DNA of 64,000 nucleotides from a bacterium (lineage in GTDB: Bacteria > BMS3Abin14). The translations under genes were made by a program, and so were the position numbers. How positions within the stretch are numbered: position 1 is the first letter of the stretch; every line of letters starts with the position of its first letter. Under the pieces are notes generated by a model, which saw only the letters and a list, made by a program, of their open reading frames with translations, was not told the origin of the DNA and ran no database searches. Positions 182 through 52,587 of the stretch are shown here, piece after piece. The DNA lies in NCBI GenBank assembly GCA_020350725.1, contig CP070719.1:2380616-2444615 (forward strand). The letters run 5' to 3'.

Positions 182-1027
182 TCCGACATAGCCGGGTCGG
201 GCACCCCCGTGGGGACGCGGGGAGAATAGAGTCCAGAGTCCAGAGGCCAGGGTCCAGAGGGGGCGGTTGGGTTCTTCGACAGGCTCAGGGCAGGCGCGGG
301 GACAAATGAGTCCAGAGTCCAGAGGCCAGGGTCCAGAGGGGGCGAGGGGGCGGTAATCTAGTTCCCGGTTCCCAGTTCACGGTTCACAGTTGGCGCCTGG
401 AATATGGAACCTCAGGCATGGGGGGCGGGACCTGGACATCAGACGCGGCGATGAGTCCAGAGTCCAGAGGCCAGCGTCCAGAGGGAGCGATGGGGTTCTT
501 CGACGGACTCCGTTCGACAAGCTCACGGCAGGCAGGGCAGGCGCGGGGACAAATGAGTCCAGAGGCCAGGGTCCAGAGGGGGAGCATGGGCGAGGGGGAG
601 ATGGGGCGAAAAGTAGTCTGTCATTGCGAACAGGAAACCGCGTAAAGCAGTCCCGGGAAATGCGGACGAGGGGACGCGGACACACGGAGACGCGGGGAAA
701 AAACCGAATCACTAATTACGAATCACAAATCACGGCGGTTCCCAACTGTGAACCGGGAACCGTGAACTGTGAACTGGTCTTCTCGAATCACAAATCACGG
801 CGGTTCCCAACTGTGAACCGGGAACCGTGAACTGTGAACTGATCTTCTCGAATCACGAATCACAGGTCACTCATCACGGAAGTTATATTTTTGATTTTGG
901 ATTTGCGACTTTGGATTGATCTTTCATCTCTAATTTCTAATGCTCTAATGCTCTGTTTTTACTGTGAACCGTGAACTTTCCTTTGGGATTTCCGTCTCCT
1001 CTCCCCTGATCTCTATGGGATCCTATT
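182..1027. repeat. Repeat-rich intergenic region with two families of short phrase-like repeats
   Basis: This 846-bp gap has no credible gene. Its first half holds four copies of a unit built from GAGTCCAGAG and GCCAGGGTCCAGAGGG, starting near 230, 308, 453 and 555. Each is joined to a TTCGACAGGCTCAGGGCAGG-like segment and to GCGCGGGGACAAATGAG. Its second half holds an almost perfect tandem duplication (see 721-850) and AT-richer phrases such as GATTTTGGATTTGCGACTTTGG and CTAATTTCTAATGCTCTAATG. Frames crossing it are arginine- and proline-rich artefacts of the repeats. The same phrases return in other gaps of the window. Confidence 0.85.
721..850. repeat. 65-bp tandem duplication
   Basis: Bases 721-785 and 786-850 are two head-to-tail copies of a 65-bp unit that differ at one position (GGTCTT against GATCTT near the end). 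The unit begins AATCACAAATCACGGCGG, continues with the phrases AACTGTGAACCGGGAACC and GTGAACTGTGAACTG, and ends in CTTCTCG. Partial copies flank it on both sides. The near identity suggests recent duplication. Confidence 0.92.
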
Positions 1028-9579: not shown

Positions 9580-9706
9580 AGCAATTTATAACTGTGAACG
9601 GTGAACTGTGAACTGGTCTTTTGGATTTTGGACTCTGGATTCGTTTTTAAGCGTGAGATCTGGAATGGACCTCTGATCATGGATATTGGCTCGCCTGAGG
9701 GTACCG
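9580..9706. repeat. Short intergenic gap carrying dispersed repeat phrases
   Basis: Just after the valS stop, 9588-9650 reads as a chain of repeat phrases (AACTGTGAACGGTGAACTG, then TTTTGGATTTTGGACTCTGG) of the same family as at 721-850 and 1364-1412. The nadC ribosome binding site lies at the end of the gap. Confidence 0.8.
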
Positions 9707-11267: not shown

Positions 11268-11502
11268 ACCGTGACGAAGAGATGGCTTTTATGCGGATGG
11301 CACAGGAGGGTCCCCCTTCAGACAGTGCTGCAAAGGACTGCCCATGAGAGTCGATGGGACTGCTGTGTTACAGACATCGGTCTCGCAGCGGCGTCCCGAG
11401 GATGCTACCCACAACGGATCACTGATCGCCCTTCGCGGCCGTTCCCCGACTGGACAATGGGAACTGTGAACCGCGTACCGGGAACTCCAAAGAGAGAGCG
11501 AC
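11268..11502. other. Intergenic gap with one repeat phrase
   Basis: A possible frame at 11271-11519 gives a peptide without any family feature and is not called. The end of the gap (11458-11485) holds the repeat phrase GGGAACTGTGAACCGCG, and AAAGAGAGAGCGAC just before coaX may serve as its ribosome binding site. Confidence 0.5.
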
Positions 11503-41201: not shown

Positions 41202-41412
41202 TCTGAGGGGACGACCACGGGATGGCGGGAGGGATTGATAAGGGGAGAGTGACCGGGTCCAGGTTCCAGGTACCGAGTTCCAGCTTTGAATCGGGAACAG
41301 TGAACTGTAAACTGTGAATCAGTCTCAAACGAATCCCGGCGGTACTCCGACCCTTCGGCACGCTCAGGGCAGGCTGTGAACCGTGCCCCGGGAACTGTGA
41401 ACGGTATTAATC
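41202..41412. repeat. Intergenic gap filled with dispersed repeat phrases
   Basis: From about 41258 to 41405 the sequence is a chain of family phrases: GGTCCAGGTTCCAGGTACC, GGGAACAGTGAACTGTAAAC, the CCTTCGGCACGCTCAGGGCA segment and GGGAACTGTGAACGG. These are the same motifs as in the 182-1027 region. Confidence 0.85.
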
Positions 41413-44694: not shown

Positions 44695-44811
44695 GGGATC
44701 CGAGATTTACCTCCTGGATCCCGGATTGCTCTTTGACCTGAACGCGCAACAGCGGATTCTCGATCCCTGCCCCGTGTTCTCAGCACTCAGCACATAGCCC
44801 CTAGCACTATC

Positions 44812-46690: not shown

Positions 46691-46989
46691 CCGCGGACCT
46701 TCAGTCGAGGTTGGGTTGGAAAATTCGATAGGGAAACATCCGTATTATGGATCATGACCTATGGGATCCGACTTTATGTCAGGACTTTCCTTTCCCATCA
46801 GTTTACCTCTCTTTGGAGGAAACAGGAAAGGGGAACATCTCCTTTCCATCCCGCGATTCCCCGATTTCCAATCTCCAATTTCCAATGTCTAATGTCTGAT
46901 TACCTAATCTCTATACCCCATTTCCCTGTGTGGCAGAAATACAACACAATTTTCTTGTTGTCACCGTCCGGAGTGATATAATCGCGAGG
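46691..46989. other. Divergent intergenic gap with repeat phrase
   Basis: The right part (46855-46915) is the repeat phrase CCGATTTCCAATCTCC, TTTCCAATGTCTAATGTC and TGATTACCTAATC. The rest holds a possible AT-rich promoter for one of the two divergent genes, but I cannot name boxes with confidence. Confidence 0.5.
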
Positions 46990-51267: not shown

Positions 51268-52373
51268 TGAATCCCGCCGGAGACCTGAGAGAGGCGGTCC
51301 GGTCACTCCTGGAGGACAATCTGGGGCTCAGGAGAGGGGAGCGTCTCCTGCTCCTCGGTGACCACGGCGAGGACGTCCCGGAGGTGGATCTGGCGGCTGA
51401 TGTGTCCGGCATCCTGGCCGACCTGCATCCCGAGACTACCGCTTTGATATACCCTTCCACGGGCAGGAGCGGCATCGAACCGCCCAAGGAGGCATGGGAG
51501 GCTGCCTTCGGACCGGAGGCGGTCTCCCGTTTCGAGGAGGGCGGGCTTCTGGATCGCCTTATCGGCAAGAGGGCGGACGGTGACGACCTGGCCAGAGCGG
51601 AGGAGATCGCGGCCGTTTCCGATGCCGTGGACGCTGTTGTTGCCCTGGCCTACCATTCCACGAGCCACACGTTGTTCAGGAGGCTGCTCACTGTCTCCTC
51701 CGGGGTCAGGTACGCCAGCATGCCCCATTTCCACCGGGACATGTTCTTTGGATCCATGAGGGTAAACTGGCATGAACTGGCCCTGTCCACCAGAACCCTC
51801 GCCCGGGCCATGGAGGGTGTGGACCATTTCGAGATAGGGTCAGGCAACGGAACGTCGCTGACCCTGTCCGCGACGGGAAGACATCTGAAGACGGACGACG
51901 GGATCCTCACCGAACCGGGGGCCTGGGGTAATCTTCCCGCCGGCGAGGTCTTCCTGGCCCCACTTGAGGGGACGGCGGAGGGGATCCTGGTCCTGGAGTG
52001 GGGACCGTCGGCAAAGCTGTCGTCACCCCTCACCGTCGAGATAAGGGCGGGACGGGCGGTTTCCGTGTCCGGGGAGAACGGAGATACCGTCCGATGGCTC
52101 GAGGGACTTCTGGCGGCCCACCCGGAAAACAGAAACGTTGCCGAACTCGGCATCGGCACCAATCCCAGGGCCACCCGCCCGGACAGCATCCTGGAATCGG
52201 AGAAGATCCTCGGTACCGTCCACGTCGCTTTCGGCGACAACCACAATTTCGGCGGTAAGGTCGTCGCGCCGTTCCATCTGGACTTCGTCGTCTACGGGGC
52301 GACCCTGGTGGCGGTCTGGGAGTCCGGTGGCGGGCGGAGGGTCATCCTCAGTGAAGGAGATCCGGGCTGGTGA
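51267..52373 (+). CDS. M29-like aminopeptidase
   Basis: The 368-residue protein resembles thermophilic aminopeptidases of the M29 type (leucyl aminopeptidase T-like): SHTLFRRLLTVSSGVRYASM, VDHFEIGSGNGTSLTLSATG, LPAGEVFLAPLEGTAEGIL and a C-terminal HVAFGDNHNFGGK with a histidine and aspartate pair (HLDF) suitable for metal binding. It would cleave N-terminal residues from peptides with divalent metal. It starts inside the stop of the NtrX-type gene, so it is part of that operon, though the link in function is unclear. No signal peptide is seen. Confidence 0.85.
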   Translation: MNPAGDLREAVRSLLEDNLGLRRGERLLLLGDHGEDVPEVDLAADVSGILADLHPETTALIYPSTGRSGIEPPKEAWEAAFGPEAVSRFEEGGLLDRLIGKRADGDDLARAEEIAAVSDAVDAVVALAYHSTSHTLFRRLLTVSSGVRYASMPHFHRDMFFGSMRVNWHELALSTRTLARAMEGVDHFEIGSGNGTSLTLSATGRHLKTDDGILTEPGAWGNLPAGEVFLAPLEGTAEGILVLEWGPSAKLSSPLTVEIRAGRAVSVSGENGDTVRWLEGLLAAHPENRNVAELGIGTNPRATRPDSILESEKILGTVHVAFGDNHNFGGKVVAPFHLDFVVYGATLVAVWESGGGRRVILSEGDPGW

Positions 52374-52587
52374 CAGGAAACCTCCAATGTCCAGCGTCCA
52401 GGGTCCAACGGGGATTTCTTCGTTTCGGAGTACCGGGATGTCGACGGAAGAGGGGAAGGCCTTAAACCGCGGCAGAGTTAAAAGGGGATCACCCTGTGGA
52501 TCCTGGATTATGGTCTGAATCCCTGAAACCTGAGATCTGGAACCGCTTGCAATAAACGAACCCGGGGGGGAAGGAAAGGAGAATGTC
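52374..52587. repeat. Intergenic gap with repeat phrases
   Basis: ATGTCCAGCGTCCAGGGTCC at 52388-52407 belongs to the GTCCAG repeat family, and ATCCTGGATTATGGTCTG and CCTGAAACCTGAGATCTGG at 52500-52540 resemble the other phrases. A GGAAAGGAG ribosome binding site precedes the next gene. Confidence 0.7.

Follow-up and report, generated by a model that had tools for sequence, protein, structure and literature searches.

Many-theme heptamer arrays mixed with a self-nesting 23-base insertion in the intergenic DNA of a bacterial chromosome

Results

The repeats in the intergenic DNA of this bacterium are best described as a mixture of many-theme heptamer repeats that morph into one another, a 23-base insertion that nests in itself, and further dispersed blocks. 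The best explanation, to which we assign a probability of about 0.6, is that the arrays are near-neutral, slippage-born minisatellites that were secondarily dispersed as composite blocks. An earlier note on this DNA had seen in it one family of short, phrase-like repeats. The dispersed phrases are real, but the heptamer arrays and the 23-base insertion are different things, and octamer arrays and other blocks accompany them; the organising 7-base period was absent from that note.

Period seven in intergenic DNA

The window, i.e., the whole 64,000-nucleotide stretch that was analysed, covers positions 2,380,616-2,444,615 of a single scaffold of 2,777,163 bases (the 2.78-Mb chromosome of genome G000). 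Together with 58 random 20-kb stretches of the same chromosome it forms a sample of 1.22 Mb. Genes were called by a simple in-frame hexamer model, and the resulting 208 kb of intergenic DNA were compared with the 1.02 Mb of coding DNA.

Intergenic DNA matches itself with a frequency of 0.323 at lag 7, 0.310 at lag 14, 0.292 at lag 21 and 0.275 at lag 28, over a background of about 0.27, and the coding DNA of the 1.22-Mb sample presents no lag-7 peak, its self-match staying at 0.249. The search for local arrays yielded 549 at lag 7, including 37 assembly gaps (N runs), which leaves about 510 in the 208 kb of spacers. Lag 8 yielded 166 raw and about 130 after gap removal, and most other lags yielded 38-70 raw, of which gaps are a large share, and about 10 without them. 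Once gaps are removed, non-coding DNA holds 2.7 lag-7 arrays per kb, versus 0.04 for lags 5, 10, 11 and 13. As in heptameric simple sequence repeats (SSRs), the 7-base tandem unit is over-represented in comparison with other unit lengths, and the arrays are mainly intergenic. Genes show no clear period-7 excess (37 segments in 1.02 Mb of coding DNA, five times the amount of spacer DNA, versus 19-25 for periods 5, 8 and 10), which agrees with the earlier observation that the phrases keep out of genes.

A weaker period-8 population exists alongside the heptamers, represented in the window by GGGGCGAG (336-352), GGACGCGG (664-698) and TCTAATGC (936-954). Coding DNA presents a small excess at lags 21 and 42 over other multiples of three, perhaps from heptad-repeat proteins. 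Of 50 assembly gaps (100 N) in the chromosome, 29 have a repeated 14-mer within 100 bases, versus 85 of 1978 random positions; the assembly thus breaks at repeat mosaics. The same motifs occur in independently assembled genomes of the family, and the copies are therefore neither confined to this contig nor an assembly error.

Composition of the window

All nine intervals in which the phrases had been noticed hold period-7 runs beyond dinucleotide shuffles (p 0.001-0.002 each, 1000 shuffles), and the phrases do recur: across the genome, TTCGACAGGCTCAGGGCAGGC has 68 matches at up to two mismatches and GTGAACNGTGAACNGTGAAC has 46 copies, with none for the backwards control of either. No part of the window matches an Rfam RNA family at the gathering score.

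The features below are given on the plus strand unless otherwise stated. The first mosaic opens with arrays of GAGTCCA (TGGACTC on the other strand) at 228-257 (lag-7 score 17; TRF period 7), 308-336 and 453-481 (both by lag-7 score and TRF), a short one at 555-576 (lag-7 score), and a GTGAACN array read on the minus strand at 361-391 (lag-7 score). Among these lie a 23/24-base copy of the mini-element, TTCTTCGACAGGCTCAGGGCAGGC, at 272-295 and a nested one at 496-542, in which the outer TTCTTCGACGGACTC...AGGGCAGGC encloses a 23-base copy, CGTTCGACAAGCTCACGGCAGGC, at 511-533. A degenerate copy of the dispersed ATTGCGAACAGGAAACCGCGTGAAGCAAT block (615-655; its consensus has 59 hits in the 1.22-Mb sample) is followed by the octamer array at 664-698 and by an AATCACN array at 707-733. 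In a 65-base tandem duplication at 719-863 (TRF; 2.2 copies, 97%), each copy includes an AATCACN and a GTGAACN array, with GTGAACN arrays at 744-776 and 809-841 (both by lag-7 score and TRF) and a further AATCACN array at 846-877. A morphing array that passes from TTTTGGA-type to TCTAATT-type units (887-941) and the octamer array at 936-954 complete the mosaic.

Further along, an AATCCRA array at 1371-1393 is matched by its inverted form, TGGATYY, at 1662-1681. The valS-nadC junction (9580-9706) holds a GTGAACN array at 9590-9615 and a TTTTGGA/TGGACTC array at 9619-9642, and a GGGAACT/GTGAACC array lies at 11451-11485. Arrays of the GGTTCCA type (41255-41281) and of GTGAACN (41288-41318) are followed by a mini-element copy, CCCTTCGGCACGCTCAGGGCAGGC, at 41351-41374, with TGTGAACC directly after it. 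The remaining arrays are CTCAGCA (44779-44805), YAATNTC (46861-46900) and GTCCAGN (52383-52407).

Heptamer themes and array growth

The units of 491 arrays fall into 45 clusters, the largest being GAGTCCA, GTGAACN, AATCACN, TGGATTT, AGAGATT and CAGTATT, with YAATNTC among the further themes. The tandem pairs GTGAACNGTGAAC and AATCACNAATCAC occur 94 and 127 times in the sample, and their backwards patterns once and twice. Many long arrays morph from theme to theme while the 7-base phase is retained, as in TATCACA TATCCCT TAGCACT TAGGACT CACCTCT CAGCTCT CAGTTAG TACCTGG AACGTGG, which has near copies at other loci.

In arrays of at least 42 bases, the identity between units at a distance of one to five units is 0.72, 0.62, 0.56, 0.50 and 0.49. 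A simulation in which each step duplicates one random unit and mutates 6% of sites (0.06 substitutions per site) yields 0.73, 0.63, 0.58, 0.54 and 0.51, whereas a single expansion followed by mutation yields an identity that is flat with distance. Hence, the greater likeness of neighbouring units points to stepwise duplication with mutation and not to a one-off expansion. The same fall with distance is found in the relative G003 and in the arrays of other phyla. A GAWY core common to the heptamer arrays of all phyla was considered and abandoned, as it has 177 occurrences versus 61 for its mirror in the family and 29 versus 27 in other phyla.

These values are clear signs of stepwise growth, which probably proceeds via copying slippage. 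The pattern supports this origin well, and from it we infer the physical slippage step. Single 7-base (or 14-base) units would duplicate repeatedly during DNA synthesis, most plausibly by primer-template slippage, and substitutions would accumulate meanwhile, such that units drift along an array and themes grade together with the 7-base phase intact. The preference of bacteria for seven-base tandem repeats has been a question since 2007, and, to our knowledge, polymerase slippage over a 7-base footprint is the sole mechanism offered for it. Loss of mismatch repair was rejected as a contributing cause, given that MutS-type genes are present; their presence counts against the slippage explanation.

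Array formation might instead depend on an error-prone SOS polymerase cassette (lexA, dinB/imuB-like, dnaE2) that copies with slippage and errors, an account we consider very improbable. The genome does have the three consecutive genes (lexA, a Y-family polymerase of the dinB/imuB-like type, and a dnaE2-like polymerase; L041:5566-10662, about 765.6-770.7 kb of G000:C1), and array-rich relatives have the cassette too. In genus g4 the cassette is absent (G003) or fragmented (G009), dnaE2 likewise, and among well-sampled genomes the array density is lowest in G003, at 0.97 versus 1.3-4 per kb, the densities of G001, G009, G010 and G011 being based on 1-2 kb of spacers each. This is, however, one loss in one genus, and the theme-wide heptamer pattern has 90 matches in G003 versus 82 in G007, which keeps the cassette. 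Arrays persist without it, and the SOS polymerase is thus weak as a required factor.

The 23-base element

The consensus of the element is [C]CCTTCGACAGGCTCAGGGCAGGC, with a constant core, TCGACARGCTC, and the tail CAGGC. The preceding base is C in all 39 well-matched copies, and no target duplication beyond one base was found: there is only the C before each copy and the C at its end. Ten copies are nested in another copy, always at GGCTC^AGGG, and two loci (L045 and L075) are apparently triply nested. Two outer types contain the nested pair, which hence arose more than once or was spread by gene conversion. Seven copies interrupt heptamer arrays whose flanks rejoin in 7-base phase, versus 0-1 at other phases. 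Judged from the sequence, the element is clearly a precise insertion that nests in itself. It is separate from the arrays and inserts after a C; other copies of itself and the joints between heptamer units are among its sites.

Its complementary 4-base arms co-vary (CCCT/AGGG, CCGT/ACGG, CCCC/GGGG). A stable hairpin was nevertheless rejected, since the predicted folds (-0.9 to -3.3 kcal/mol) are no better than those of shuffles. The earlier description of several phrases as near-palindromic hence holds for some blocks and is not general. Some unrelated genomes are also rich in the core (29 copies in G016, 18 in G042), and a search of open-access papers for its 14-base cores found no published name for the element.

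Dispersed blocks and the search for an enzyme

Many spacers share composite blocks that are 50-76 bases long. In the GCGGTTGTCATTGCGAACAGGAAACCGCGTGAAGCAATC block (window 615-655; 59 sample hits), two inverted repeats, GCGGTT/AACCGC and ATTGC/GCAAT, are interleaved and may form a pseudoknot-like structure. The CCACAGAGGACCACAGAGGCGTCCCTTGAGACGCC block (26 hits; L068, L060, L050) forms a short hairpin and often lies beside copies of the 23-base element. A 76-base block, AAGTACTAAGTGATATGTGATAAG... (27 hits; L038, L046, L049, L050, L035), forms an imperfect hairpin with heptamer-phased arms (fold z -3.4).

Given that one theme occurs at dozens of loci, which is beyond slippage alone, a dispersal step is needed, and finished blocks would be copied into new intergenic places. 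A stronger version of this idea, nearest to the view of the earlier note, is that the arrays are themselves mobile: an enzyme would insert array blocks, and slippage would be their later decay. The recurrent composite blocks, the heptamer-phased hairpin, the precise insertion of the 23-base element and the empty site at valS-nadC described below all speak for such mobility. The blocks, however, have no constant ends, length or target duplication, and the order and number of their units vary. We regard mobile arrays as unlikely, and the results for enzymes add to the case against them.

No RVT_1 domain was found in the genome, and telomerase-like or retroelement templating of the arrays was rejected on this ground. 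Two Y1 transposase genes of the TIR-flanked type are present (L217:1360-2350 and L216:1200-1910). The former resembles the TIR-flanked class described in PMC3733652 and is bounded by GGGGTCGCATCTTGCCTTTTAACC inverted repeats (GGGGTCGCATCTTGCC ends), unlike the 23-base element; the latter is separated from one copy of that element by about 200 bases that include an assembly gap. G007, a 98% complete genome, has 35 copies of the core and no Y1 gene. Mobilisation of the 23-base element by a RAYT was thus rejected: the Y1 genes have other ends, and G007 has the element without them. The founding element with an enzyme that had been proposed as a target of search is therefore not borne out by either the reverse transcriptase or the Y1 results.

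Placement and turnover among relatives

Array density is highest between convergent genes (3.2 per kb) and lowest between divergent genes (2.1 per kb). There is no preference for start codons, as 12% of arrays lie within 30 bases of a start and the median distance is 209. Both results fit the view that the repeats are not a promoter element.

Among 92 junctions shared with G003, 18 bear an array here, and 15 of these 18 have none in G003. Overall, the array-bearing junctions show no significant excess of length over those of G003 (p 0.33), which counts against the best explanation. The junction with the array at 11451-11485 measures 235 bp here versus 24 bp in G003. At valS-nadC, the two genes abut or overlap in six relatives (G001, G003, G004, G007, G009 and G010), and two arrays are present here; the junction reads as a clean empty site for array gain. 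After window position 52373, GTCCARN-type arrays are found in four genera (G000, G002, G011 and G006), with other themes or none elsewhere. Comparison of gene junctions with relatives shows that heptamer arrays turn over between genera. Gain at junctions that are empty in relatives, along with the 50-76-base blocks at many loci, accords with the description of the repeats as spreading or shuffling.

Family members share the period of seven and have their own themes, e.g., GAACNTT in G003. Twenty other families pooled present no period-7 excess (z 0.9), and scattered genomes of many phyla do carry heptamer arrays, among them Scytonema, Anabaena, Luteirhabdus and Alcanivorax, the last two with morphing heptamers. 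No core is common to the themes of these phyla.

By analogy with a described case, the arrays could be sites at which a protein that binds RNA or DNA acts on the adjacent gene, which we hold to be improbable. The occurrence of GTCCARN after the same gene in four genera would fit this, as would the orientation of GTGAAC arrays in same-direction spacers, which favours the sense strand by 43 to 18 (p 0.002, five tests). This lean is not predicted by plain neutrality and counts against the best explanation. Variation is also uneven over the seven unit positions (z 6.5-10), yet the neutral stepwise model reproduces equal unevenness, and positional conservation was dropped as proof of selection. Binding sites are further opposed by the density peak between convergent genes, the small share of arrays near a start, the 15 of 18 junctions that are unshared with G003, and the 45 theme clusters, which are ill-suited to one binding protein.

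Returning to slippage-born minisatellites, arrays would be tolerated mainly in longer spacers, and they turn over between genera, so that most copies are probably without function. Function of the arrays is doubtful, and their near-neutrality is what these patterns suggest.

Comparison with known repeats

Cyanobacterial STRR comprise several heptamer themes per genome, the described units being TAACTGA, GGGGATT and GGGGACT. The repeats studied here share the presence of several themes, and morphing arrays occur at some of the cyanobacterial loci we examined, but tandem dimers of those three units are absent from the 1.22-Mb sample and the themes are family-specific.

Heptameric SSRs of bacteria include the long SSRs of Mrazek (2007) as well as GGGAATC in Xanthomonas and GGGGAYT in Nostoc (PMC4692102). 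Slippage as the source of the heptamer excess, which we adopt above, is a proposal of Mrazek (2007; cited in PMC4692102 and PMC4679880). Shared with these are degenerate, over-represented 7-base intergenic units that occur on both strands and differ between related species. The difference is that many themes coexist here within a single genome and shade into each other; dimers of GGGAATC, GGGGATT and GGGGACT number zero in the 1.22-Mb sample. The TAACTGA repeats of Beggiatoaceae, proposed as protein-binding arrays for the neighbouring gene, have one dominant exact unit, and most sets lie within several bases upstream of start codons (PMC4679880). The likeness is in tandem, mostly intergenic heptamers with a scattered phylogeny and no known mechanism, whereas the present arrays have many themes, no start-codon preference and no TAACTGA tandem dimers in the 1.22-Mb sample.

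REP sequences moved by RAYTs are defined by a GTAG- or CGTC-type tag beside a palindrome (PMC3733652). REP/BIME mosaics resemble the present ones in their short intergenic repeats, complementary arms, mosaic arrangement and scatter over phyla, but the 23-base element has neither tag, its arms are of 4 bases, its fold is weak and no RAYT gene is linked to it. With MITEs the element shares precise insertion, nesting and a non-coding nature, yet it has only 23 bases, inverted ends of at most 4 bases and a target duplication of at most one base. What is new relative to known heptamer repeats is the many-theme, morphing form and the self-nested 23-base element. Part of the material belongs to a described kind, the bacterial heptameric repeats.

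Significance

The hundreds of many-theme arrays, with a measurable stepwise signature and with other themes at the same junctions of relatives, allow the slippage idea to be tested through comparative genomics. The 23-base element, with its nested copies, belongs with the smallest insertions that leave so clean a footprint, and no enzyme could be assigned to it. Tentatively, and at rather long odds, the family may possess an active generator of 7-base units that works by error-prone, stepwise and largely sequence-independent copying, along with an enzyme-moved, self-inserting 23-base element, the two together rebuilding its intergenic DNA.
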